Positions 15,619-27,661 of a stretch of 64,000 nt of DNA are shown one piece after another. The position numbers and the translations under genes are program-made. Source of the stretch: Nitratireductor pacificus pht-3B (lineage in GTDB: Bacteria > Pseudomonadota > Alphaproteobacteria > Rhizobiales > Rhizobiaceae); contig NZ_AMRM01000007.1 in assembly GCF_000300335.1 (NCBI RefSeq), positions 62,001-126,000 of the forward strand, written 5' to 3'. The first letter of the stretch is position 1. Every line of letters begins with the position of its first letter. Below the pieces are notes generated by a model that saw nothing but the letters and a program-made list of their open reading frames with translations, was not told the origin of the DNA and ran no database searches.

Positions 15619-16380
15619 CTAGCGGAGACCAGAGAGAGCCTTCCGCTCTTCATCGACCGAAAGCGGGGTTCCGGCCCCGCTGGCGTCGAGGAAGGCGTCC
15701 AGCGCCTCCATCGACGATGCGGGAACGAACCTGCCCTCGGCATCGACCTGCGAAGCGGCGAAGCGGAGCTGCCAGGCCTCGTCGTCGCGGCAGGCGACCG
15801 CCACGTGCGAAATGCCGCCGGCGCTTGCCTCGAACTCGCGGCAGAGCGCGTTCGCGCCGTCGCGATAGGTTGCGATCGCCTCGAAGCTTGCCTCCGGGCC
15901 GAGTTCGACCGTCTCCCCCGAGGCCGAGGTGTTCAGGGCTTCGACGATCCGTTCGCCAGCCAGGCCGGCAATCTCGATGCCCGCGGCGCGTTCCGGCTGG
16001 CCGGCGGCCATGTAGCCGAGCAGCCCGCCGGCGACGAGCGCCAGCGAAGCAGCGATCGGCAGGAAGAAGCGCTGGGCGGCGTGTCCCTTCCCCGCCGCGC
16101 GGCGCGGCGCGAATGGAACCACGTCGGCGCCTGCCGCATCCTCCGCCTCCGCCGCGGCGGCCATCTGCCGCACGCGCGCTTCGAGATCGTCGGGTATCGA
16201 GACCTTCGCCGTTCCCAGCGTTTCCGCCACAAGCGCGCGGGTCTTCACGAACAGCGCCACGCGCTGCGCGAGTTCGGCATCGCGGCCGATGGCATCGTCC
16301 ACGCGGCGGCGGGTCTGTGCGTCCAGCTCGCCATCCGCATAGGCCATCAGAACGTCATCGGTGAACTTGTCTTCATGCAT
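15619..16380 (-). CDS. Membrane anti-sigma factor
   Basis: 253 residues. The N-terminal anti-sigma domain contains [21 protein letters not shown], as in FecR/RsiW-like anti-sigma proteins without an obvious zinc motif. One transmembrane segment follows (about residues 104-127, [20 protein letters not shown]), then a periplasmic domain rich in acidic residues with two Cys (ALCREF, VACRDDE). It starts 38 bases after the ECF sigma gene and should hold that sigma factor at the inner membrane until a periplasmic signal releases it. The two periplasmic Cys could sense redox state; that part is speculative. Confidence 0.85.
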
Positions 16381-16418: not shown

Positions 16419-16910
16419 TCAGTTGAGATCGAGCCTGCTGGCGAGGTTGGTCCGGGCACGGGCGAGCCGGCTCATCACCGTGCCGATGGGAATGCCGAGC
16501 GTCGCGGCGGCTTCCTTATAGGAAAGCTCCTCGACGCAGATCATCACGATGATCTCGCGCTGATCCTCGGGGAGGTCCTGAAGCGCATGCGCCACGGTGC
16601 CAAGCATCAGATGGGTCTCCGTGTCGCGCGCGCCATCGGTGAAGATCGCATCCGGCCGGTCGGCGATGTCGATGCTTTCTCCCCGCGTCCTGTCGCGCCG
16701 CACCCGGTCGATCCAGGTGTTGCGCATGATGCGCAGCAGCCAGGCGGAAAGATTCGTGCCGCGGGCATAGCTGCCCCGGTTCGCGAAGGCCTTCTCGCAG
16801 GTCTGCTGCACAAGGTCGTCGGCCACGTCGAGGGAGCGGCTGAGCACGAAGGCATAGCGCCGCAGGTTCGGCAGCAGGTCGACGACGTCATCCGCAAAAC
16901 TGGACTTCAT
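16419..16910 (-). CDS. ECF-type RNA polymerase sigma factor
   Basis: 163 residues from the ATG at 16910, which has AGGAT about seven bases upstream. A farther in-frame start at 16982 would lie inside the promoter repeat and is rejected. Region 2 reads DLLPNLRRYAFVLSRSLDVA and LLRIMRNTWIDRVRR; region 4 reads LPEDQREIIVMICVEELSYK and GIPIGTVMSRLARARTNL. There is no region 3, as expected for group 4 (ECF) sigma factors. Cotranscribed with its anti-sigma gene and divergent from an exported protease, with which it shares a symmetrical promoter element. Confidence 0.92.
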   Translation of the reverse strand: MKSSFADDVVDLLPNLRRYAFVLSRSLDVADDLVQQTCEKAFANRGSYARGTNLSAWLLRIMRNTWIDRVRRDRTRGESIDIADRPDAIFTDGARDTETHLMLGTVAHALQDLPEDQREIIVMICVEELSYKEAAATLGIPIGTVMSRLARARTNLASRLDLN

Positions 16911-16944
16911 GCTCAGATCCTGGCGCCTTCTCCGTGAATGATGT

Positions 16945-16974
16945 GGAATAAACGTCCGGCTTGCCCGTTTATTC
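16945..16974. promoter_or_regulatory. Symmetrical divergent ECF promoters embedded in a perfect inverted repeat
   Basis: GAATAAACG (16946-16954) and CGTTTATTC (16966-16974) are perfect inverted repeats around an 11-base spacer. On the plus strand this yields GGAAT-N16-CGTT toward the protease. On the minus strand it yields CGAAT-N16-CGTT toward the sigma gene. This is the GGAAy-N16-CGTT layout known for alphaproteobacterial ECF sigma factors, so the sigma factor probably drives both directions. Confidence 0.6.
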
Positions 16975-17020
16975 GTTCGCACTCGAAAAAATGCTAATGA
17001 GGCGTCGATTGGAAGGCTTC

Positions 17021-18466
17021 ATGAATAAAACGCACAGCTATCGCACCCTCTTGCGCCTGTTGCTCATCCTCCTCTTGGGCGCGCCGCTTGCCGTCGCGCC
17101 GGTTCTTTTGGGCGACCCCATGGGCCATGCCCTTGCCGACGACGATGACGACGACGACGATGATGACGATGATGCGGGCGGTGGTTCATCCGCGCGGGGC
17201 GGCTCGTCCGGCGGTTCCTCCGGTTCGTTCCAGCGTCCGGGCTCCTCCCGCCTGCCGCTGTTCGACAAGCTGCGGGAGCGTTTCAGCCCCGCGCCGCGCA
17301 CGCAGCGCCGCGGCCGGACCGTTCGCCGCGCCACTCCGCCGCCGGCCATCCATGCCGAGCGGGAGATCATCGCGATAGGGCTGGACGAGGACGAGATCCG
17401 GGCACTTGCCGAGGATGGCTTCGCCGTCCTGGAACAGGTCGATCTGCTGTCGCTGGCCGCCACCCTCTACCGCCTGCGGATCCCGGCGCGTCAGACGCTG
17501 GAGAGCGCCCGCGAGGCGGTCCGCGCCCTGAAGCCCGACGCCTTGCTGGACCTCAACCACTATTACCGCCCCTCCGCGCCCGGCAACGCCTCGGTTCCGG
17601 AACCGCTCGCCTGCGACGGGCCGCATTGTGCCGACAGGGCGCTGGTGGGATGGGCTACGTCCGAAAGGCGCGACCCGGCCTGTAGTGCGCCTGTCCGGGT
17701 CGGCATCATCGATACCGGCATCAATCCCGAACACACGACATTCGACGGCAGCAATATCGAATTCGTCGGCACCGAGGAACCGCATGGGAACCGGTCGGGC
17801 AGACAGCACGGCACGGCGGTCGCCGCCATCCTGATCGGGTCTGGAGAGAGCCGGTCGCCGGGGCTGTTGCACGAAACCCAACTCGTGGCGGCCGACCCCT
17901 TCTACAGGGAATCGGGCGACGAGCGCGCCGACGCCTACCATCTCATCGCGGCAATCGACGCCGTTCTGCACCGCGATGTCGCCGTCCTGAATCTGAGCCT
18001 TGGGGGTGCCGCCAACGAGGTTGTCGAGCGCATCGTCGACGAAGCGGCACAAGCCGGCACCATCGTCGTCGCGTCCGCCGGCAACAATGGCCCGCGGGCG
18101 GCGCCGGTCTATCCCGCCGCTTATGAAACGGTGATCGCGGTCACCGCGGTGGATCGCGCCAGACGGGTCTACCGCCGTGCCGGGCAGGGCGAGCATATCG
18201 ACTTCGCCGCCCCGGGAGTGAGGGTCTGGACCGCCGCGTCGATCTCGGGCGCCCGTCCGAAGACCGGCACGTCCTTCGCAACCCCCTTCGTCACGGCGGC
18301 GGTGGCGATGCTGAAGCGCCAGGTTGGGGAACTGAATCTCGATGCCGTGAAAAGGATCCTCGCCGCGAGCGCGCTCGATCTGGGCGCGGAGGGCAAGGAC
18401 CCCGTTTTCGGATACGGGCTGCTGCAGGCGGGCAATCTGTGCTCCTCGTCGCTGGCCGTCGATTAG
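17021..18466 (+). CDS. Secreted subtilisin-like (S8) serine protease with poly-Asp stretch
   Basis: 481 residues from the ATG at 17021. Upstream in-frame starts lie in or next to the promoter element and are rejected. A signal peptide (residues 1-39, ending MGHALA) is followed by 12 consecutive Asp (about 40-51) and a Gly/Ser linker. A pro-region of about 110 residues precedes the S8 domain. Catalytic residues are all present: Asp231 in VGIIDTGINPEH, His263 in RQHGTAVAA, oxyanion Asn in ASAGNNGP, and Ser418 in GTSFATPFVTAA. It should be an active periplasmic or extracellular protease. It is divergent from the ECF sigma/anti-sigma pair and probably a member of that regulon. Confidence 0.9.
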   Translation: MNKTHSYRTLLRLLLILLLGAPLAVAPVLLGDPMGHALADDDDDDDDDDDDAGGGSSARGGSSGGSSGSFQRPGSSRLPLFDKLRERFSPAPRTQRRGRTVRRATPPPAIHAEREIIAIGLDEDEIRALAEDGFAVLEQVDLLSLAATLYRLRIPARQTLESAREAVRALKPDALLDLNHYYRPSAPGNASVPEPLACDGPHCADRALVGWATSERRDPACSAPVRVGIIDTGINPEHTTFDGSNIEFVGTEEPHGNRSGRQHGTAVAAILIGSGESRSPGLLHETQLVAADPFYRESGDERADAYHLIAAIDAVLHRDVAVLNLSLGGAANEVVERIVDEAAQAGTIVVASAGNNGPRAAPVYPAAYETVIAVTAVDRARRVYRRAGQGEHIDFAAPGVRVWTAASISGARPKTGTSFATPFVTAAVAMLKRQVGELNLDAVKRILAASALDLGAEGKDPVFGYGLLQAGNLCSSSLAVD

Positions 18467-19017
18467 ACAACGTTCAACGCTTCGGTGAACGGGTCCATCG
18501 TTCTCCTTTCCTGCGTCTTTCCGGGCGTTGGCCGTTTCCATTTCGCTGCAAGCATCCCTGGATGAGGACACATTCAAACGCTGGAGATCGCGGCGTCCAA
18601 GGGCGCGACAGCTGATAGGGAAGTTGGAGGGGTGAGCATATCGTGACGAAGCGCCGGCGGTTCCCGAGCCCCGCAGAAGAGCTTTCGATGACGATCCGTC
18701 GTCGATGGGTTTTGCGATCAGGGGGATGGCGTTCTGCGGGCGGCCGAGGATGGGGCACAGCCTCGATGTTTGCCGCTGTAAGCCGCTGCCGCAGATTGCC
18801 CGCATGGGCTTCGTCCGCGAGCGGCAGTTTGGTCGGACTGCCCGTTCCAGCAATGGAACAAGCATCCTGATGTCTGCGGTATCAAAGGGTGAGGGGACGA
18901 AAGCGGCCTATAGGACGCAATCATCGGCCAAGGCACGGTTTTGCTTGTTCTTCGTCTGTGCGACCTGTCAGTCGCTGGCGGGGCTGGGAGACTGACCGGC
19001 CTTCCAGCCTGTGACGG
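18467..19017. other. 551-bp stretch without a supported gene
   Basis: An imperfect hairpin (18471-18491, arms CGTTCA and TGAACG) follows the protease stop and could end its transcript, though no T-run follows. Short open frames on both strands show no recognisable domain, no good ribosome site and no consistent codon pattern. The stretch could be decayed sequence. I see no insertion-sequence ends in it. Confidence 0.5.
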
Positions 19018-19941
19018 CTAACGGCCGGACGGTAACCCCACCTCCACCAGCGCGAAGACGGAACGCTGCTGCTTGTCGATCCTGTCGTCGCTGACGAGAA
19101 GGAAGCGCGTCGGCGAAACGGCAACGATGCCTTCGAAGTCGGCGTCGTTGATGCCCGGAATGTCGAGGCGCACGGCGCTCGTCTCGCAGTCGGTGTCCGG
19201 CTGGCAGGCCTGCGGGTCGATCAGGCGGAGATGCGGAATGAGGGCCTTGCCCTCCTTGACGCGCTCGAGCGCCAGCAGCCTGCCGTCGGGGAGGGTCGTG
19301 ATCGCCTTCACCCTGGATTCGCCGATGTCGCCACTCGACCAGGTGAGGGTCTCGCCGCCTTCGGCGTGGAGTCTGTGCTGGCTGCGCGGCGCCGGTTGGT
19401 AGGGTTCCTCGGGAAGGGTCACGAGGCCGAGCTCCGGATGGTGGGTCATCGCCTCGAGGCCGCGGTTCTTACCGGCCTGCCGGCTGCTGTCGCGCACGCC
19501 GAGCGGCAGGTCGATCTCCTTCAGCCAGCGTCCCTCCTGATCGAAAAGGGCCGCGCGCGGGCCGCTTTCGCTGAGGATGGCGAAGGCGGGGACGCCCGCT
19601 TCGCCCGGCCTGATGACAAGCTCCTCGGGACCGAACCCCTGATCGGCGAGCGTCGCGCCGTCCGTGTCGGTGAGGCTGTAGGCGCTTTGCGGTTCCAGGG
19701 TCGCGATCTTCTCGCCCTCGGTCGCGAAGGCGAGGCCGAAGAGCGTCGCCCTGTCCGAGACCGCGTAGACGATCTGCTTTTCGGGGTCGTAGGCGAGGCC
19801 GGACAGTTCGGCCATCGTCTGTCCGTCGACATCGATGGCGGGCAGGATCCTGTGATCGAGCACCCTTGCCGTCATCGGCTCGGCATTGGCTGCAAGCGTC
19901 GTGGCGAGGGCGAGGAGCGGGGTGATGAGAATGGTTCGCAA
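19018..19941 (-). CDS. Secreted phytase-like esterase domain protein
   Basis: 307 residues from a TTG at 19941, supported by GGAGG eight bases upstream. A signal peptide (residues 1-20, ending TLAANA) directs it to the periplasm. The body carries the beta-propeller-like pattern of the esterase-like phytase family (Phytase-like, PF13449): MAELSGLAYDPEKQIVYAVSD, GPEELVIRPGEAGVPAF, NRGLEAMTHHPELG and NDADFEGIVAVSPTRFLLVSDD. It would cleave phosphate esters or related bonds outside the inner membrane. It is the last gene of the phosphate/polyphosphate operon, 78 bases after the PiT transporter, and could supply that transporter with phosphate. Confidence 0.8.
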   Translation of the reverse strand: MRTILITPLLALATTLAANAEPMTARVLDHRILPAIDVDGQTMAELSGLAYDPEKQIVYAVSDRATLFGLAFATEGEKIATLEPQSAYSLTDTDGATLADQGFGPEELVIRPGEAGVPAFAILSESGPRAALFDQEGRWLKEIDLPLGVRDSSRQAGKNRGLEAMTHHPELGLVTLPEEPYQPAPRSQHRLHAEGGETLTWSSGDIGESRVKAITTLPDGRLLALERVKEGKALIPHLRLIDPQACQPDTDCETSAVRLDIPGINDADFEGIVAVSPTRFLLVSDDRIDKQQRSVFALVEVGLPSGR

Positions 19942-20019
19942 GGTTCAAACCTCCAGTTTGGCGGATGCTGTCGGTGGAAGGCGGGGGCGCTCCGGTTCCT
20001 GGCCGCAGCGCCCGGCGCG

Positions 20020-21624
20020 TCACAGCATGATTCCGCGAAGGGTGAAGTAGATCAGGGCGGAAATGAGCGCGGTCAGCGGGACGGTTATGATCCATGCCGA
20101 CAGCACCCTGGCCATCAGTGCCCGGTTGACGAGGGCATCGCTCCGGCAGGCTGCGTTGCGGCTCACCGTGGCGCCGTTGTCCGCCACCCGCTCCCTGCGC
20201 AGTTGCGCGATCATGGCCTTGCGCTGCGCGAAGGGCGTTGCGTGAAGCCGGGCGATGAAGGCGTCGCATTCCGCCGTGTCGCGATCCGCGTGAAGCGCGC
20301 GGATGTCGGACAGGATCAGCGCATGGCGCCGCTTCAGCCATTCGCGCAGGAAGCCCACACCGAGCACGGCACCGACGGTCACATGGGTGGTGGAAACCGG
20401 CAGGCCGAGCTGGCTGGCGGCGATCACCGTGATCGTCGCCGCCATGGCGATGCAATAGGCGCGCATGGCGTCGAGCTTCGTCAGTTCCGCGCCCACCGTA
20501 TGGATGACGCGGGGGCCGAACAGCAGCAGGCCGATGGCGAGGCCGGCGGCACCGAGACCCATGACCCAGAGCGGAATGACCGCCTCCTCCTGCATCGCCG
20601 CATTGCTCAGCACGTCGTAGATGCCGGCGAGCGGGCCGATGGCGTTGGCGACGTCGTTGGACCCGTGCGCGAAGCTCAGCAGCGCGGCGGAGAAGATGAG
20701 CGGCAGGGCGAGCAGCTGGTTGACCGCCGACTTGTCGTTGCGGAGCCTCGGCAGCCGGCGCCTGATCAGTGCGCGGGCGATGCCCCAGGTCACCAGGGCG
20801 ATGAGCGCGCTCATCATGCCCGCCTCGAGCAGGCTGGCGGCCCAGATCTTCTTGAGCCCCTTCAGGATCAGGTAGGTGCCGAAAGACCAGGTCATCGCGG
20901 CCACCAGCAGCGGGACGATCCTCTGCGCGGCCTCAAGCACCTGTGGCTGATAGGTGACGAAGCGCTTGATCGCGTAGAGGAACAGCGCCGCGAACAGCCC
21001 GCCCAGAAACGGGGAGACGATCCAGCTTGCGGCGATGTTGGCCATGACCGACCAGTCGACGGCCGAGAGGCCGGCGGCCGCTATGCCGCCGCCCATCACG
21101 CCGCCGACGATGGAATGGGTGGTGGAGACGGGCGCGCCGAGAACCGTCGCGAGGTTCAGCCACAACGCGGCGGCCAGCAGCGCGGCCATCATCACCCAGA
21201 CATAGACGTTCCGGTCGGCCAGCGCCTCCGGCATCACGATCCCGCCGCGCACGGTGCTGATCACCGAGCCGCCGGCGATGAGGGCGCCGCCGAACTCGAA
21301 CAGCGCCGCCATGATCAGCGCACCGCCGAGCGGAATGACGCCGGCGCCGACGACAGGGCCGACATTGTTGGCCACGTCGTTCGCGCCGATGTTGAGCGCC
21401 ATGTAGGCGCCGAAACCGGCGGCCGTCGCGATCCAGAGCGCGAATTCGGGATTGCCTCCCGATTGGGCGCGCACCAGCGCATAGACCATCGCCGCGACGA
21501 CGAAGGATAGGGCGACGAGAAGGCGCCCGAGAAACGGAGCGAGGTCCCTGAGGTCCGACCGGGCTTTCGCGAGGCTCGCCATATAGCCGGATTCAGGCAA
21601 AGCGGGGCTGACATGCGTACGCAT
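20020..21624 (-). CDS. PiT-family inorganic phosphate transporter
   Basis: 534 residues. The second of two adjacent ATGs (21624) is preferred because AAAGGAG then lies six bases upstream; the first ATG (21630) would touch it. Both PiT signature repeats are present: GANDVANNVGPVVGAGVIPL and GSNDVANAIGPLAG, each with TTHS/TTHV partners (VSTTHSIVGGVMGG, VSTTHVTVGAVLG). About 10-12 membrane segments flank a hydrophilic loop (about residues 375-460). It is a low-affinity, proton- or metal-phosphate-coupled transporter of the inner membrane. It lies 31 bases after the polyphosphate polymerase gene, in one operon with it. Confidence 0.92.
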   Translation of the reverse strand: MRTHVSPALPESGYMASLAKARSDLRDLAPFLGRLLVALSFVVAAMVYALVRAQSGGNPEFALWIATAAGFGAYMALNIGANDVANNVGPVVGAGVIPLGGALIMAALFEFGGALIAGGSVISTVRGGIVMPEALADRNVYVWVMMAALLAAALWLNLATVLGAPVSTTHSIVGGVMGGGIAAAGLSAVDWSVMANIAASWIVSPFLGGLFAALFLYAIKRFVTYQPQVLEAAQRIVPLLVAAMTWSFGTYLILKGLKKIWAASLLEAGMMSALIALVTWGIARALIRRRLPRLRNDKSAVNQLLALPLIFSAALLSFAHGSNDVANAIGPLAGIYDVLSNAAMQEEAVIPLWVMGLGAAGLAIGLLLFGPRVIHTVGAELTKLDAMRAYCIAMAATITVIAASQLGLPVSTTHVTVGAVLGVGFLREWLKRRHALILSDIRALHADRDTAECDAFIARLHATPFAQRKAMIAQLRRERVADNGATVSRNAACRSDALVNRALMARVLSAWIITVPLTALISALIYFTLRGIML

Positions 21625-21655
21625 GGTCATCTCCTTTCGATGGCAAAGATGAGGT

Positions 21656-22444
21656 TCAGGCGGGGCTCAGGGCCCGGCCGTCCAGAAGCTGTAGCCGCCG
21701 CAGCGCCGGCAGGAAGCGGTTGTGCCGCGCCACCTGCCCCGTCGCGGCCATGCCGACGCAGTATTTCGAGCAGCGTTTCGTCGGGTGGACATGCAGCCCC
21801 CGCAGGATCGCGTCGGCGATGCCGTTGCCGCGCGCCGACTTCGTCTCCACGATGGAGATGTCCGGCCGGACCCGGCGGCTGACGCCACCCGCGTCGAACG
21901 AAAGCTCTGTATCGATGGTCATGCGCTCGCCGCCTTCCTTGGCGACCAGCGTGATGCGCCTGTACCGCATCCCGATCACCGGCACCAAGGGCCGGTCGAA
22001 GGGGCTGTCGTAGATCTCGCGGTGGCATGTATCGATGAAGGCTTCACCGGAGAGGTCGAGGCCCGCGCCCGGCTCCCGCAGCTTCAGCCGTTTCTTGACG
22101 GTGATCTGCCGCTTGCTCTTGAGCTTCACCTCAAGGTAGCTGAGGCCGCTGTCTATATAGTCGCGCACCCGCACCTTGCAGCGCTTCCGGCGTCCCTGAT
22201 GGTGGTCGTAGTAGCTGCGCAACCCGTCATCGTCGTAGTAGCGGGTGGCGTAGGTGAACGCGCGGATGCCGTCGATCTCGAGCACGTCGAAGAAGTCCGA
22301 GAAGGCGTTCAGCGCGGGGCGGAGCCGGTCGGCCGGAACGATGTACTTGTTGTCCAGCCGTTCCAGCATGGCGGCCTTGCCGTTTAGCTCGTCGAGCGAG
22401 AGGGGCTGGAAGCCGGTCAGTTCGGTCGCGATGGAGTGGTCCAT
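21656..22444 (-). CDS. VTC-domain polyphosphate polymerase
   Basis: 262 residues with AAGGAGG seven bases before the ATG. The sequence carries the VTC (PF09359) triphosphate-tunnel pattern of alternating basic and acidic residues: LERLDNKYIVP near residue 30, TRYYDDDGLRSYYDHH at 67-82, KRCKVRVRDYIDSGLSYLEV at 87-106 followed by KLKSKR, then GMRYRRITLV and IVETKS. Yeast Vtc4 uses such residues to make polyphosphate from ATP. No transmembrane segment is visible, so it probably acts on the cytoplasmic face, perhaps held by the DUF4956 protein encoded 23 bases upstream. Confidence 0.85.
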   Translation of the reverse strand: MDHSIATELTGFQPLSLDELNGKAAMLERLDNKYIVPADRLRPALNAFSDFFDVLEIDGIRAFTYATRYYDDDGLRSYYDHHQGRRKRCKVRVRDYIDSGLSYLEVKLKSKRQITVKKRLKLREPGAGLDLSGEAFIDTCHREIYDSPFDRPLVPVIGMRYRRITLVAKEGGERMTIDTELSFDAGGVSRRVRPDISIVETKSARGNGIADAILRGLHVHPTKRCSKYCVGMAATGQVARHNRFLPALRRLQLLDGRALSPA

Positions 22445-22467
22445 GGGAGTGCCTCCTTGCCGTCCGA

Positions 22468-23049
22468 TCAGCGCCGGGGCTTGCGGAAGAACACGTTCAT
22501 CCGGGCCATGTCGTTGATGTAGTCGAGCGTGGTGATCTGGTAGGACATGACGTCCACGCCGAGGCGTTCGGAGAGGTCGCGGCGCATCTTCTCGGGCTGC
22601 GAAAGCGCCTCGTGGTCGATCTTGTCGAGCGTGATCTTGACGCCGTCCGAGGAGCGCAGGATCGCCGGGTGGTCGAGGATATAGGCGCCCAGAAGCACCA
22701 GCGCCACGACGGCGAGCACGATGGCGATCGGCGTTCCGGGGATGGCGCAGATCACGGCGATGGAAACCGAGCCGAAGAAATAGGTGATCTCGACCTTCGA
22801 GATCTGCTCCGAGCGCAGCGTGAACAGCGCCAGGATGGCGAAGAGGCCGAAGCCCGCCGCAAGCGAGAATTCGACCGCCGAAAGGATGGAGAGAACGCCG
22901 AAGGCGAAGATGTTGAAGAGCGACGCCGCGGTCACCAGCTCCTTGTCGCGATAGCGCCTGTAATACAGGCCGAAGACCAGGGCCGTCATCGACAGGACGT
23001 CGATGGCGAAGCGGATGGGGGTATCGCCGAGTGCGAGCGTTTCCAGCAT
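22468..23049 (-). CDS. DUF4956 membrane protein
   Basis: 193 residues from the ATG at 23049, chosen because GAGG lies six bases upstream; two earlier in-frame ATGs (23073, 23061) lack this. About four membrane segments occupy residues 10-120 (IDVLSMTALVFGLYYRRYRD, FAFGVLSILSAVEFSLAAGF, ITYFFGSVSIAVICAIPG). A cytoplasmic tail of about 70 residues contains RLGVDVMSYQITTLDYINDM, typical of DUF4956. The function is not established. DUF4956 genes commonly neighbour VTC-domain genes in bacteria, which suggests a membrane partner for polyphosphate synthesis or transport. Confidence 0.85.
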   Translation of the reverse strand: MLETLALGDTPIRFAIDVLSMTALVFGLYYRRYRDKELVTAASLFNIFAFGVLSILSAVEFSLAAGFGLFAILALFTLRSEQISKVEITYFFGSVSIAVICAIPGTPIAIVLAVVALVLLGAYILDHPAILRSSDGVKITLDKIDHEALSQPEKMRRDLSERLGVDVMSYQITTLDYINDMARMNVFFRKPRR

Positions 23050-23078
23050 TGTTTTCCTCATTCTGTTGGTCATGGTCG

Positions 23079-23107
23079 CTGTCAGAAATCTGTCACATAA
23101 CTGTCAG
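23079..23107 (+). promoter_or_regulatory. Pho box: three direct CTGTCA repeats, 11-bp phasing
   Basis: CTGTCAG (23079-23085), CTGTCAC (23090-23096) and CTGTCAG (23101-23107) are spaced by four AT-rich bases each. This matches the PhoB consensus of 7-bp CTGTCAT units with 4-bp spacers. It lies 30-58 bases before the DUF4956 start. The repeats read on the plus strand while the operon is on the minus strand, which is not the usual orientation. Confidence 0.75.
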
Positions 23108-23191
23108 AAAACCGTCTCTGGTGTCGGAAAACGTGAGGGAAACGGATCTATTCCATCGGCGGTGATTTTTATTCTCGCTGGCGCGGCTTCT

Positions 23192-23211
23192 CCCCTCCCC
23201 GGCAGGAGGGG
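23192..23211 (-). terminator. GC-rich hairpin after LysR gene
   Basis: CCCCTCC (23192-23198) and GGAGGGG (23205-23211) pair around CCGGCA, 22 bases past the LysR stop. There is no T-run, so it may only be a 3' stabilising stem. Confidence 0.4.
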
Positions 23212-23232
23212 CGGGTGTCGGCGGGGACAGCG

Positions 23233-24165
23233 TTAGCCGGCGAAGGGTCCGCGGTCGGCGTCGCGCTGCGCCTTCGTGTCGGCGGTCAGGATGCGCAGGA
23301 ACAGCGCGGTGGCCTTGCTCAGGCTGCGCGAGCGCGGCCAGATGACACCCGTGTTCATGGTCTCGATCCTGTCGGCGAGCGGTTTCCGCAGGAGGCGCTG
23401 GCCTTCGAGCGACCAGGCGCGATAGATCATATCGGAAAGCACCGTGATCCCGTGACCGGCGGCGACGAGGCTTCGCACCGCCTCGATCGAATAGCTGCGG
23501 AAGACGACCCTCGGCTGAAAACCGTAGCGCCCCCAGTTTGCGGTCATCGTGTGCTCGTGGTCGTCGGTCTGCAGCAGGAAATACGGTTCGTCCACCAGAT
23601 CTGCGAAGGCGATGTCCTCGCGCGCCGCGAAGGGATGTCCGGCGCCGATCCAGAGCTGCCTCTGCGAAACCAGCAGCGTCTCGTGCTCGAAGTCCTCCCT
23701 GTTGCCCATGTTGGAGATCAGGATGATGCCCAGGTCGAAGCGGCCGTCGAGCACGCCCTTTTCCACCTCCGGCCTCGGCAGTTCGGTCACATGCAGCTTC
23801 AGGCTCGGCGCCTTACGCCGGATCTCGCGCCAGATGCGGGGCAGGTAGTAGCCGGAAACCGTATCGGTCACGCCGAGCCGCACCTCGCCGCCGATCTGCA
23901 GGTCGTCCTCGACGCTCAGCGTCATCAGGTCTTCCAGTCCGGCAAGCACGCCCGTGGCGTTCTGCAGGAAGAGCTGGCCGGCGGCGGTGAGTTCGACGCC
24001 CTTCGCCTTGCGGTGGAACAGCCGGTATCCCAGCCTGTCCTCGAGGTCCCGGATCGCGATGGTGATCGAGGACTGCGTGACATTCATGTCGTTGGCGGCG
24101 CGCGAGATCTGGCCGCTGCGGGCAGCCGCGACGAAATACTGGAGCTGTCGGACGGTTGGAAGCAT
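23233..24165 (-). CDS. LysR-family transcriptional regulator
   Basis: 310 residues from the ATG at 24165, giving MLPTVRQLQYFVAAARSGQI; a TTG twelve bases upstream is possible. The HTH reads ISRAANDMNVTQSSITIAIR followed by LEDRLGYRLFHRKAKGVELT. The effector domain belongs to the CbbR/CysB-like periplasmic-binding fold. It is divergent from the molybdopterin fusion gene with 70 bases between starts in an AT-rich gap, so it very likely controls that gene and the fatty-acid transporter behind it. Confidence 0.9.
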   Translation of the reverse strand: MLPTVRQLQYFVAAARSGQISRAANDMNVTQSSITIAIRDLEDRLGYRLFHRKAKGVELTAAGQLFLQNATGVLAGLEDLMTLSVEDDLQIGGEVRLGVTDTVSGYYLPRIWREIRRKAPSLKLHVTELPRPEVEKGVLDGRFDLGIILISNMGNREDFEHETLLVSQRQLWIGAGHPFAAREDIAFADLVDEPYFLLQTDDHEHTMTANWGRYGFQPRVVFRSYSIEAVRSLVAAGHGITVLSDMIYRAWSLEGQRLLRKPLADRIETMNTGVIWPRSRSLSKATALFLRILTADTKAQRDADRGPFAG

Positions 24166-24235
24166 AAATTCTATCAATATCTCGGTTCAGGTATTTAAAC
24201 TAGTTATTTTGCGGCGGGATGCCTAGCGTGCCGCG

Positions 24236-27200
24236 ATGATCCACGTCGCCGCTGCTTCCGAAGGTCCGATGCTGAAAACCGGGTTCTGCGCCCTGTGCCG
24301 CTCGCGCTGTGGCGCGCGTTTTGAGATCAGCGAAGGTCGGCTCGTGGCCGCCCATCCCGAACCCTCGCACCCGACCGGTTCGGCGCTCTGCACGAAGGGC
24401 CGTGCCGCGCCGGAGATCGTGGCCGATCCGGATCGGCTCCTGACGCCCCTGCGCCGGACCGCGCCCAAGGGCAGCAGCGATCCCGGCTGGGTGCCCGTCG
24501 GCTGGGATGAGGCGCTGGACGACATCGCCGCAAGGCTCGGCGCGATCCGCGACCGGTCCGGCGCCGAAGTGGTCGCCTTCGGGGTGACGACGCCCAGCGG
24601 CACGCCGATGAGCGATTCCATAGACTGGGTCGAGCGCTTCATTCGCGGCTTCGGCAGCCCGAACACGATCTACGCCACGGAACTGTGCAACTGGCACAAG
24701 GATTACGCCCACGCCTTCACCACCGGCAGCGGCATCCTCTTTCCCGACTACCGGAACACCGAGACGATCCTTCTGTGGGGGTTCAATCCGAGCGCCGTCT
24801 GGCTCGACCAGGCAACCCAGATCGCCGAGGCGAGGGCCCGGGGCGCGAAGATCGTCGCGGTGGACCCGCGTGCCGCGGGCTATGCCCGCGGCGCCGACCA
24901 CTGGCTGAAGCTGCGACCCGGAAGCGACCTGCCGCTTGCCATGGGCCTGCTGCGCCAGTTGATCGCGCGGCGCGGCTACGACGAGGCGTTCCTGCGCCGC
25001 TGGACCAATGCGGCCCTTCTGGTACGGACGGATACGGGCGCCTTCCTCCGGGCCGGGGACATCGGCGAAGCCGCCCACGCCGGCGCTTATGTGGCCTGGA
25101 ACGGCGCGCCCGTGTTCTACGATGCCGCGCGACGCCGTTTCGACGCGGGCGTCGAGCACCTGTCGCTGCGCGGCACGGTGACGGTGGCCGGCATCGCCTG
25201 CCGGCCGGCGTTCGACCATCTTTGCGAGGCGGTGGAACCCTATTCGCCGGAGCATGTCGCCCGTTTGACGGGCGTCGCCCCGGAGGCACAGGACCGTGCG
25301 GCGGAACTTCTGAGCCGCACCGGTTCCATCGCCTACTATTGCTGGACCGGCGTCGGCCAGCACCGGAACGCCACCCAGACGGATCGGGCGATAGCGCTGC
25401 TTACCGCCCTCAAGGGCCGGCACGACGCGCCGGGCGGCAATGTCGCCTTCACCAAGGTTCCCACCAATCCGGTGAACGGCGCCGAGTGGCTGACGCCCGA
25501 ATTCGTTTCCCGCGCCATCGGCTATGACGAACGCCCCATCGGCCCACCGGCCATGGGATGGGTGCGGGCGCTCGACGTTTATCGCGCGATCCTCGACGCG
25601 CAGCCCTACCGGGTTCGCGGGCTGGTTTCCTTCGGCGCGAACTTTGCCGTGTCGCAAGCCGGCGCCGACCTGGCCGTGGAGGCGTTGCGGCAGCTCGAGT
25701 TCCACGTGCACTGCGACCGGGTCATGACGCCGACCGCGCAGTTCGCGGACTATATCCTGCCGGCCAACACTCCGTGGGAACGGGAGGCGCTGCGTGTCGG
25801 TTTCGAGGTCAGCCAGGAGGCCGAGAGCCTCGTCCAGCTGAGGCAGGCGGCGCTACCCTCGGCGGGGGAAAGCCGTTCGGATGCCGACATCGTCTTTGCG
25901 CTGGCCGCGAGGCTGGGCATGAGCGACATGTTCTTCGGCGGCGACATCGACGCGGCGCGCGACTGGCAGCTGAAGCCCGCCGGCCTGAGCGTGGCGGAAC
26001 TGCGGGCGAAGCCAGAAGGGATCACGGTGCCGCAGTCCCAGAGACATCGCAAATACGCGGAAGAGACCGAAGGAGGGCAGCGCGGCTTCGCGACGGACAC
26101 GGGGCTGGTCGAGATCTATTCGGATCTGCTGCGCCGTCACGGACAGCCGCCCGTGCCGCGCATGACCGGCGCGCCGCCCGAGCCGAGCCGCGACTTCCCG
26201 CTGCTTCTGACGACGGCCAAGAGCCCCTACTACTGCCACAGCCAGTACCGTTCCATCCCGTCGCTGCGCAAGCGGGCGCCGCAGCCGCAGGTGCGCCTGC
26301 ATCCCGACGCAGCCGCGCTCTACGGGCTGGAGCACGGCGAGACCGTGCGCCTCCGCACGGAGACGGGGGAGGTGCGCATGCAGCTTGCCTGCGACCGGAC
26401 GCTCGATCCCGGCACGGCCGTCGCCGACTATGGCTTCTGGCAGGCGAACCCGCGGCTGAAACTGCCCGGATACGATCCCTTCTCCGACAAGGGGGCGAAT
26501 TTCAACCGGCTGATCGCCCTGGACGAGGCCGATCCCGTCAGCGGGGTTCTGCCGCACCGCTCGACCCGCTGCGCGGTGCTGCCTCTCGACGAAGGGGCGC
26601 TGGCCTGGCGCGGCTTCCGTGCCGCGCGGGTCGTCGAGCACCAGCCGGTCGCCGGGGACTGCATGCGTGTCGGCTTCGCGGTGGAAGGCCATGAAACCCT
26701 GCCCGACTACGCGCCCGGCCAGCATATCGTGCTGCGCATATCCGCGCCGGATGGTGCGGCGCCGGTAACGCGCTGCTATTCGCTCGTCGGCTCCGCCCGC
26801 GATGCGAACAGGGGAAGCTACATCATCACGGTGCGCCGGGTGGGCGTGCCCGCCGGACGAAGCGATCTGCCGCCGGGCCGGGCCTCGACGTTGGTGCACG
26901 ACGGCCTGCAGGTCGGCAGCATGGTGGAACTGCAGGCGCCGAAAGGCCGCTTCACCCTGCCGCTCGAGCCGGAACGTCCCGTCGTCATGGTGGCAGGCGG
27001 CATCGGCATCACGCCGTTCCTTTGCTATCTGGAAACGCTGGCGGCCAGCGGTTCGCCGGCGCGGGTGCACCTAGTCTACGCCAACCGCAACGGACGCAGC
27101 CATGCCTATCGCGAGCGGCTTGAGGCGCTTGGCGAGGCTCTGCCGGGCATGAGCCTCGTCTCGCTCTACGACGCACCGGACGAGGGCGATCGTCCAGGAC

Positions 27201-27661
27201 GCGACTTCGACCGCGCCGGGCGCATCGCGCTGACCGATATCCTCCCTGCCGACCTGACCGAGGCGCCGGAGGTCTATCACTGCGGCCCGCCGCTGATGAT
27301 GCGCGCCGTCGAGGCGATGCTGGAGGAGGCGGGCCATCCGGCCGAACTGATCCACAGCGAATCCTTCGGAGCGCCGGCGTTGCCGCAACCCGGAAAATTG
27401 CCCGAAGGGCCTTTCATCGTCGAGTTTCGGCGCAGCGGCAGGACGCTCACATGGAGCAGGGACTCCGGAACGCTGCTTGATTTCGCCGAGAAGGCAGGGC
27501 TTGAGATGGCCAGCGGCTGCCGCGCTGGCCAGTGCGAAAGCTGTGCCGTCAGAATCATCCAGGGAAAGACCCAGCCGCTGAGCGGGGACCTCCCGAGCAA
27601 CCCGGAACTGTGCCTCACATGCAGCACCGTGCCTGCCAGCGACCTGATCCTGGATGGATAG
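24236..27661 (+). CDS. Molybdopterin oxidoreductase fused to ferredoxin-NAD(P) reductase and 2Fe-2S ferredoxin
   Basis: 1141 residues in one frame. Residues 1-790 form a bis-MGD molybdoenzyme. A 4Fe-4S motif (Cys18, 21, 25, 52) comes first, then ELCNWHKDYA with Cys151 at the usual Mo-ligand position, GFNPSAVW, AKIVAVDPRA, and a C-terminal MGD-binding barrel (FPLLLTTAKSPYYCHSQYRS). Residues of about 800-1045 form an FNR-like domain with RCYSLVG (FAD), GGIGITPF (NAD(P)) and YHCGPP. The end is a plant-type 2Fe-2S ferredoxin, CRAGQCESC plus CLTC. Electrons could run from NAD(P)H through FAD and 2Fe-2S to Mo, or back. No Tat signal is visible, so it is probably cytoplasmic. An in-frame ATG at 24269 is an alternative start. 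Confidence 0.88.
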   Translation: MIHVAAASEGPMLKTGFCALCRSRCGARFEISEGRLVAAHPEPSHPTGSALCTKGRAAPEIVADPDRLLTPLRRTAPKGSSDPGWVPVGWDEALDDIAARLGAIRDRSGAEVVAFGVTTPSGTPMSDSIDWVERFIRGFGSPNTIYATELCNWHKDYAHAFTTGSGILFPDYRNTETILLWGFNPSAVWLDQATQIAEARARGAKIVAVDPRAAGYARGADHWLKLRPGSDLPLAMGLLRQLIARRGYDEAFLRRWTNAALLVRTDTGAFLRAGDIGEAAHAGAYVAWNGAPVFYDAARRRFDAGVEHLSLRGTVTVAGIACRPAFDHLCEAVEPYSPEHVARLTGVAPEAQDRAAELLSRTGSIAYYCWTGVGQHRNATQTDRAIALLTALKGRHDAPGGNVAFTKVPTNPVNGAEWLTPEFVSRAIGYDERPIGPPAMGWVRALDVYRAILDAQPYRVRGLVSFGANFAVSQAGADLAVEALRQLEFHVHCDRVMTPTAQFADYILPANTPWEREALRVGFEVSQEAESLVQLRQAALPSAGESRSDADIVFALAARLGMSDMFFGGDIDAARDWQLKPAGLSVAELRAKPEGITVPQSQRHRKYAEETEGGQRGFATDTGLVEIYSDLLRRHGQPPVPRMTGAPPEPSRDFPLLLTTAKSPYYCHSQYRSIPSLRKRAPQPQVRLHPDAAALYGLEHGETVRLRTETGEVRMQLACDRTLDPGTAVADYGFWQANPRLKLPGYDPFSDKGANFNRLIALDEADPVSGVLPHRSTRCAVLPLDEGALAWRGFRAARVVEHQPVAGDCMRVGFAVEGHETLPDYAPGQHIVLRISAPDGAAPVTRCYSLVGSARDANRGSYIITVRRVGVPAGRSDLPPGRASTLVHDGLQVGSMVELQAPKGRFTLPLEPERPVVMVAGGIGITPFLCYLETLAASGSPARVHLVYANRNGRSHAYRERLEALGEALPGMSLVSLYDAPDEGDRPGRDFDRAGRIALTDILPADLTEAPEVYHCGPPLMMRAVEAMLEEAGHPAELIHSESFGAPALPQPGKLPEGPFIVEFRRSGRTLTWSRDSGTLLDFAEKAGLEMASGCRAGQCESCAVRIIQGKTQPLSGDLPSNPELCLTCSTVPASDLILDG

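Follow-up and report, generated by a model that had tools for sequence, protein, structure and literature searches.

The Operon and Its Genes

The window analyzed here is a stretch of 64,000 nucleotides (nt) of the genome of Nitratireductor pacificus pht-3B (4.47 Mb), located on contig NZ_AMRM01000007.1 (positions 62,001 to 126,000; C7 in our numbering). Its minus strand carries four consecutive genes encoding a DUF4956 membrane protein of 193 amino acids (23049-22468), a VTC-family protein of the TTM fold of 262 amino acids that is predicted to be an ATP-dependent polyphosphate polymerase (22444-21656), a PiT-type phosphate transporter of 536 amino acids (21630-20020) and a phytase-like protein of 307 amino acids with a TTG start and, by reading, a signal-peptide-like N terminus (19941-19018). 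The genes are separated by 23, 25 and 78 bp. The same-strand order and the four families had been proposed from the nucleotide sequence before any database was consulted (the sequence-only reading below), and Pfam bore them out: all four proteins passed the cut-offs, with E-values of 1.2e-45 for DUF4956 (PF16316), 2.5e-28 for VTC (PF09359), 5.2e-103 for PHO4/PiT (PF01384) and 6e-27 for the phytase-like protein (PF13449). The closest named relative in the genome collection was Nitratireductor aquimarinus, whose DUF4956 protein is 95% identical. Scanning this collection, which holds one genome per species, for DUF4956 yielded 34 related loci (designated by L numbers).

Alignment of the upstream region with those of two other Nitratireductor loci led us to place the DUF4956 start codon at the ATG at 23049 instead of 23073. 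In both relatives a 1-bp indel interrupts the longer frame between the 23073 start and the later in-frame ATG, whereas the GAGGA leader and the ATG at 23049 are retained, and the latter was therefore taken as the start. Across the three aligned upstream regions ATGAGGAAAACAATG is kept, unlike the longer frame. A stop codon within the longer frame was found in four of the 34 related loci (L004, L005, L006, and L024).

Upstream of this start lies a PhoB-type operator (23079-23118, plus strand) consisting of the units CTGTCAG, CTGTCAC and CTGTCAG at 23079, 23090 and 23101 and a weaker, degenerate fourth unit at 23112, i.e., tandem 7-bp repeats with an 11-bp period as in a Pho box. The CTGTCA triple occurs once in the window, both strands counted, and is retained in the two other Nitratireductor loci, in which the middle hexamer differs by one base. 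The triple repeat that the sequence-only reading had placed ahead of the operon is thus present and of the PhoB type, but its units read on the plus strand, opposed to the operon, and end only 29 bp before the ATG. In the plus direction the box is followed by a LysR gene that lies on the minus strand and faces it with its 3′ end, so that it has no evident gene to activate on that side. This LysR gene (23233-24177) was considered as a regulator of the operon and rejected: it is not conserved as a neighbor, and in L002 another gene (msrA-like by reading) takes its place. A scan of positions 18400-23300 for the sigma-70 consensus recognized no promoter (0.6 expected by chance).

The VTC Protein Resembles Yeast Vtc4

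The VTC protein was modeled by AlphaFold with confidence (pLDDT 88.5). In a fold search with this model the first 13 PDB matches were chains of yeast Vtc2, Vtc3 or Vtc4 (best match 8i6v_E, 4.3e-12), followed by other TTM enzymes including triphosphatases, and the predicted structure is accordingly a TTM tunnel fold nearest to the Vtc proteins. At the sequence level a single-sequence search against PDB sequences returned nothing useful and a profile built from close relatives got no further than Vtc2 (E = 1); a wider profile of 15 bacterial VTC proteins recovered yeast Vtc4 at 1.9e-16. Through this profile twelve residues of the operon protein could be mapped to Vtc4: K33, R92, R94, K107, K117, Y161, R163, R174, D178, E200, K202, and K227 (corresponding to K200, R264, R266, K281, K294, Y359, R361, R373, D377, E426, K428, and K458 in Vtc4, respectively). 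All twelve are invariant or at least 90% conserved among the 15 bacterial proteins, and we take the corresponding Vtc4 residues to be catalytic. Vtc2 has an isoleucine at the position of Vtc4 K458 in the same alignment. VTC was the only domain detected in the 262-residue protein, and the SPX domain of eukaryotic Vtc4 was not found; the membership claimed here is therefore that of the polymerase-domain family and not of the eukaryotic complex. As the Vtc4 fold appears to be preserved together with nearly all of the presumed catalytic residues, the protein probably makes polyphosphate.

DUF4956 Is Linked to VTC in Most Related Loci

The model of the DUF4956 protein (pLDDT 72), examined together with its hydropathy, comprises about five long hydrophobic membrane helices followed by a C-terminal alpha/beta domain. 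By the positive-inside rule, the loops that carry its invariant basic residues would be cytoplasmic. An MgtC-like identity, suggested by this layout, was dropped: no similarity to E. coli YhiD, which we take to be an MgtC-family protein, was seen in a single, weak comparison of low sequence diversity, and no PDB fold was matched under an E-value of 0.001.

In 31 of the 34 related loci DUF4956 is accompanied by a VTC gene, with a phytase-like gene between the two in L020, L023 and L026. Of the three loci lacking VTC, L016 ends at DUF4956 and the two others (L030 and L033, Nitrotoga) hold none in the fetched stretch. The VTC gene of Roseovarius tolerans (L005:8610-9371) has an in-frame stop after residue 118. 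Among 289 genomes of the class, DUF4956 was found in six and VTC in six; both were found in five, each time on one contig and within 3 kb. Of the two remaining genomes, G220 had DUF4956 alone and G108 VTC alone, as a weak match interrupted by stops. Among 14 control genomes, both families were matched in the same three. The partnership claimed by the sequence-only reading was borne out by these counts (31 of 34 loci, and five of the seven genomes with either family among the 289), and DUF4956 is probably the membrane partner of the VTC polymerase. Two copies of the DUF4956-VTC pair in one genome were noted in two cases (L022 and L029; L065 and L070).

A VTC match was present in eight of 398 genomes sampled from the phylum, one of them below cut-off. 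The 16 other genomes listed there for the family of N. pacificus gave no match, so that the module is rare and patchy. In a tree of 31 DUF4956-VTC rows the three Nitratireductor rows join L004, L006 and L007 (98/92), all of the latter being metagenome-assembled genomes. The broken or cut loci and those without VTC (L005, L016, L030, and L033) were left out of the tree and of the VTC alignment. Because the rows had been chosen for their resemblance to the window, the tree does not prove a direction for any horizontal transfer of the pair.

The Phosphate Transporter and the Phytase-Like Protein

The PiT protein aligned with the solved phosphate transporter 6l85 (4.7e-63) over both half-repeat motifs of the PHO4 domain. 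A second PiT is present in the host genome. PiT transporters are of low affinity in the known systems. The phytase-like protein is a member of PF13449 and is probably exported, as judged from its N terminus. The sequence-only reading had described it as an exported esterase that frees phosphate outside the cell; the family membership stands, but phosphate release is unproven, and three of four relatives tested also matched PF06977 (SdiA-regulated family), two of them above cut-off.

Both genes recur in the survey of the related loci. PiT was found in six of the 34 and a phytase-like gene in seven (two frames in L020), in more than one gene order, and five loci (L002, L003, L011, L022, and L023) hold both. 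These and the other neighbor counts are lower bounds, as several loci end at contig edges.

Pho Boxes and the Direction of Regulation

Exact pairs of the form CTGTCA-N5-CTGTCA occur at three places in the host genome. Two are the overlapping pairs at the operon, and the third abuts a response-regulator gene beside tct-like genes (L081:2143-2820), at the start of that gene itself. With up to one mismatch allowed, 25 matches were obtained as against 11 for a reversed control pattern, some palindromic sites being counted twice; about half of these sites are thus background. One-mismatch boxes lie ahead of the pst operon, 73 bp before the start codon, and ahead of phnCDE-like genes (by reading), 100 bp before the start codon, both oriented with the genes (starts by reading). 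The pst locus was identified by PstB (TIGR00972, above cut-off), a response regulator (Pfam) and pstS-like and phoU-like genes (by reading); the PstS model TIGR00975 had no match in the genome although PstB is present, and was taken as too narrow. Judged by sequence, the operon box is a Pho box whose geometry differs from that of the pst and phn-like boxes, since it is inverted and lies 29 bp from the ATG.

Boxes of this kind are found in the relatives as well. Of 35 regions covering 200 bp ahead of DUF4956 (the 34 loci and the window), 15 contained a match at 10 or more of 12 positions, compared with 56 of 4000 control windows drawn from these loci. A chance origin was rejected by shuffling, which in 200 rounds gave such matches in 0.4 regions on average (maximum 4). 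In Rhodobacterales the box is mostly a triple 11-bp repeat oriented with the operon, in many loci at about 95-166 bp ahead of the start; it is inverted in the three Nitratireductor loci and in L021.

In Sinorhizobium, according to PMC3131613, the box lies upstream of the promoter in most PhoB-regulated genes, but just upstream of the translation start in the orfA-pit operon, which is repressed upon phosphate starvation. The inverted, start-proximal box of the Nitratireductor operon resembles the latter arrangement, and by this analogy repression of the operon on phosphate starvation is somewhat the better expectation. The induction by PhoB under starvation that the sequence-only reading had assumed is therefore doubtful, even though the box itself is of the PhoB type. 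The position is not decisive: at rosR, whose expression increases with phosphate, boxes near the start codon accompany stimulation by PhoB of E. coli (PMC3131613). The passages of PMC5127829 that were consulted contain nothing on pit.

The operator might instead be read mainly by another regulator of the OmpR family, namely a linked two-component system in Rhodobacterales and perhaps a TctD-like protein in Nitratireductor, in which case the operon may respond to a different cue, for example calcium, the state of the envelope or the carbon source. A histidine kinase and/or an OmpR-type regulator is encoded in 18 of the 34 loci (kinase only in L013, regulator only in L017), and the operon-oriented triple operator tracks these genes: the operator matrix scored above 23 in 17 of these 18 loci and in three of the 16 others (Fisher 1e-5), and above 25 in 16 of 18 and three of 16, respectively (Fisher 7e-5). 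Seventeen of the operator sites had gone into the matrix, which therefore scored some of its own source sites, in loci that are related to one another, and these Fisher values are accordingly inflated and descriptive; the cut-off of 23 was chosen to include L017, and the inverted sites of L002 and L003 were left uncounted. Weaker copies of the operator stand near kinase, P-loop or EF-hand genes (L008, L013, L032, and L034) and, in L026, between the kinase and regulator genes. The third exact box of the N. pacificus genome abuts the response-regulator gene beside the tct-like genes mentioned above, and in Pseudomonas PhoB and TctD act at shared promoters (PMC4513871), which bears on the question of the regulator. 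Against this stand the facts that no two-component system lies beside the window operon and that a similar box precedes pst in the same genome. A main role of another regulator is a serious but rather unlikely alternative to control by PhoB.

Activation by PhoB under starvation, with the exported enzyme freeing phosphate, PiT importing it and VTC storing it, appears less likely still. It would agree with the PhoB type of the box, with the many Rhodobacterales boxes that lie farther upstream and point with the operon, as at pst, and with the rosR case. In Nitratireductor itself the box is inverted and start-proximal. At the spacing that we take to be usual, little room would be left between such a box and the start codon for a leader bearing the GAGGA ribosome site, and the low affinity of PiT in known systems would not favor a role in starvation.

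Relation to Polyphosphate Kinase

The sequence-only reading had proposed that the operon works independently of polyphosphate kinase (PPK). This was not upheld, because the host genome carries one PPK1 match, at a separate locus with a ppx-like gene (by reading) beside it, and one PPK2 match. A PPK1 search of the 30 genomes behind the loci found the enzyme in 26. No match was obtained in three Ruegeria genomes (L009, L010, and L011) and in one metagenome-assembled genome (L031), the completeness of these genomes not being stated.

The box type of the operon was also found ahead of ppk1. With the window's own gene there are 27 ppk1 loci, the start region of which was located in 24; in six of these (genomes of L002, L017, L018, L020, L023, and L025) a box matching at 10 or more of 12 positions lies within 450 bp upstream, where about one is expected as scaled from the 200-bp control. 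The best box upstream of the window genome's own ppk1 matches at 8 of 12 positions. A search of five genomes found the exact pattern CTGTCATNNNNCTGTMA at five sites in all, compared with one site for the reversed pattern. Two of the sites precede DUF4956 (genomes of L025 and L032), one precedes ppk1 (genome of L025) and two lie elsewhere; the genomes of L010 and L029 have none. Thus the only two exact sites of Tabrizicola aquatica (L025) are those of DUF4956-VTC and ppk1. On the exact sites of this one genome and a few weaker ones, the shared box sequence links the module with polyphosphate metabolism without recourse to the name VTC.

Proposed Function of the Operon

The operon is a real, conserved, phosphate-linked form of the VTC-DUF4956 module, without CotH and coupled to phosphate import. 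As its mechanism we tentatively propose, at somewhat less than even confidence, a membrane-attached polyphosphate synthase of the VTC type that is coupled to phosphate import and repressed on starvation. PiT would import phosphate, which the cell would fix into ATP, and VTC, held at the membrane by DUF4956, would transfer the terminal phosphate of ATP to the growing polyphosphate chain, while the exported phytase-like protein would handle phosphate esters or polymer on the far side. With plentiful phosphate the operon would be on and would fill a store beside that of PPK1. Once phosphate is exhausted, phosphorylated PhoB or a close relative would bind at the inverted boxes, across leader and promoter, and shut the operon off, and uptake would pass to PstSCAB. 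The scheme builds on observations of the families, the fold match of the VTC model, the conserved residues, the gene linkage and the box with its geometry; we infer the activity, the formation of a complex, the direction of regulation and the role of the exported protein.

Several observations weigh against the scheme. The position of Vtc4 K455, a residue that is presumably functional as well, is occupied by arginine in the operon protein, and the DUF4956 model matches no solved PDB fold under an E-value of 0.001. Members of the PiT family can carry sulfate, and the operon protein scored 118.7 with the NCBIfam sulfate permease model (cut-off 400) and 52.3 with the PitA model (cut-off 800). Most of the 34 related loci lack PiT and the phytase-like gene, some of these loci being shortened by contig ends. 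On the side of regulation, the start-proximal rosR boxes go with stimulation (PMC3131613), so that such a position need not mean repression; many Rhodobacterales operators point with the operon from farther upstream, resembling activation, and another OmpR-family regulator may read the operator.

It is improbable that the VTC-fold protein uses another substrate, for instance as a tripolyphosphatase, or that, partnered by DUF4956 in the membrane, it phosphorylates a polymer for export. In favor of such readings, triphosphatases belong to the wider TTM fold and were also matched in the fold search; CotH stands beside a distant relative (L090), and CotH, polymerase and DUF4956 genes stand beside pel (PMC7112168). 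Yet VTC proteins, and not triphosphatases, gave the best matches in both fold and sequence, the Vtc4 residues are retained, the gene is linked to PiT, and in Tabrizicola aquatica the module and ppk1 have a box type in common. Equally speculative is an extension of the proposed scheme in which DUF4956 would be the bacterial counterpart of the VTC channel and polyphosphate, made by VTC-DUF4956 at the inner membrane, would be passed into the periplasm, where acidic, probably exported proteins of recurring neighbor genes would hold a calcium-polyphosphate store, the phytase-like protein would return phosphate and PiT would re-import it. The acidic proteins invoked are an EF-hand protein, which in L008 has a poly-Asp tail, and a subtilase, which in the window has a poly-Asp segment, both described below. 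If true, such a store would be a bacterial analog of the acidocalcisome with the periplasm as its lumen.

If the operon works as proposed, some bacteria would possess a second enzyme for polyphosphate synthesis, one bound up with the membrane and with phosphate import, and a first function could be assigned to DUF4956. The three Ruegeria genomes that hold the DUF4956-VTC pair and gave no PPK1 match make the question directly testable.

Comparison With Known Systems

With the eukaryotic VTC complex (Vtc1 to Vtc5) the operon shares the TTM polymerase domain with the Vtc4 residues and probably the link to the membrane, here through a partner. It differs in that its VTC protein has neither SPX nor fused membrane helices, DUF4956 is a separate protein and the genes form a bacterial operon with PiT. 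The PPK1 system has the same predicted product and, in Tabrizicola aquatica, the same box type, but its enzyme family is unrelated and its gene lies at a separate locus in the host genome. The Sinorhizobium orfA-pit operon resembles the Nitratireductor operon in containing a PiT gene and in having its Pho box directly ahead of the translation start, the repression on starvation being that of orfA-pit; it is not known to include genes for VTC, DUF4956 or a phytase-like protein.

The same pair of families is known from streptococci, clostridia and bifidobacteria, where genes for CotH, a poly-phosphate polymerase and DUF4956 adjoin pel exopolysaccharide genes as accessories to Pel clusters (PMC7112168), and VTC-domain and CotH genes are listed in a Clostridium locus (PMC2879425). 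Unlike the pel-linked genes, the operon described here is without CotH or pel and has PiT, the phytase-like protein and the PhoB-type operator. CotH is absent from the window operon (Pfam) and was not found among the family-tested neighbors of the 34 loci, which covered part of the flanking genes; the CotH gene of L090 (Pfam) adjoins a distant bacterial relative. Proteins of L068 and L092 were considered as CotH and rejected, as they gave no CotH match.

VTC has been mapped across eukaryotes (PMC10657179), and both a review (PMC12526157) and a research paper (PMC7556998) assign polyphosphate synthesis to VTC in eukaryotes and to PPK in bacteria. A search of PMC6864096 for VTC found nothing. 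In the open-access literature we found no paper joining DUF4956 with polyphosphate, and the titles and abstract openings of the matches listed there (few subscription papers, no bioRxiv) report no bacterial VTC activity.

Neighboring Genes

Beyond the phytase-like gene the window holds genes for an ECF-type (extracytoplasmic function) sigma factor (16419-16982, minus strand; Pfam), a probable anti-sigma factor (15619-16380, minus strand) and a subtilase of the S8 family (16961-18466, plus strand; PF00082) that contains a poly-Asp segment and is, by reading, probably exported. The putative anti-sigma protein had no Pfam match; its gene adjoins the sigma gene and is by reading like the same-placed gene of L002. 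This module of sigma factor, probable anti-sigma factor and subtilase was found in seven of the 34 loci in varied arrangements. An Asn/Ser/Asp-repeat-rich protein is encoded between the anti-sigma gene and DUF4956 in L020 (6625-6939), and a similar one upstream of DUF4956 in L025 (L097:168-509).

An EF-hand protein is encoded near DUF4956 in eight of the 34 loci (L008, 9475-9963; L009, L010, L018, L019, L022, L024, and L029), the poly-Asp tail being seen in L008; EF-hand-like genes were noted by reading in L065 and L070 as well. Eight loci encode a P-loop protein (by reading; e.g., L010:1894-2958) without a Pfam match, and seven an ABC-membrane-like protein (partial in L013; e.g., L008:11127-12716) whose ATPase part is degenerate by reading. 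The two often occur together near DUF4956-VTC. On the other side of the operon, the plus strand of the window contains a frame of 1141 amino acids (24236-27661), by reading a fusion of a molybdopterin oxidoreductase with a reductase and a 2Fe-2S domain.

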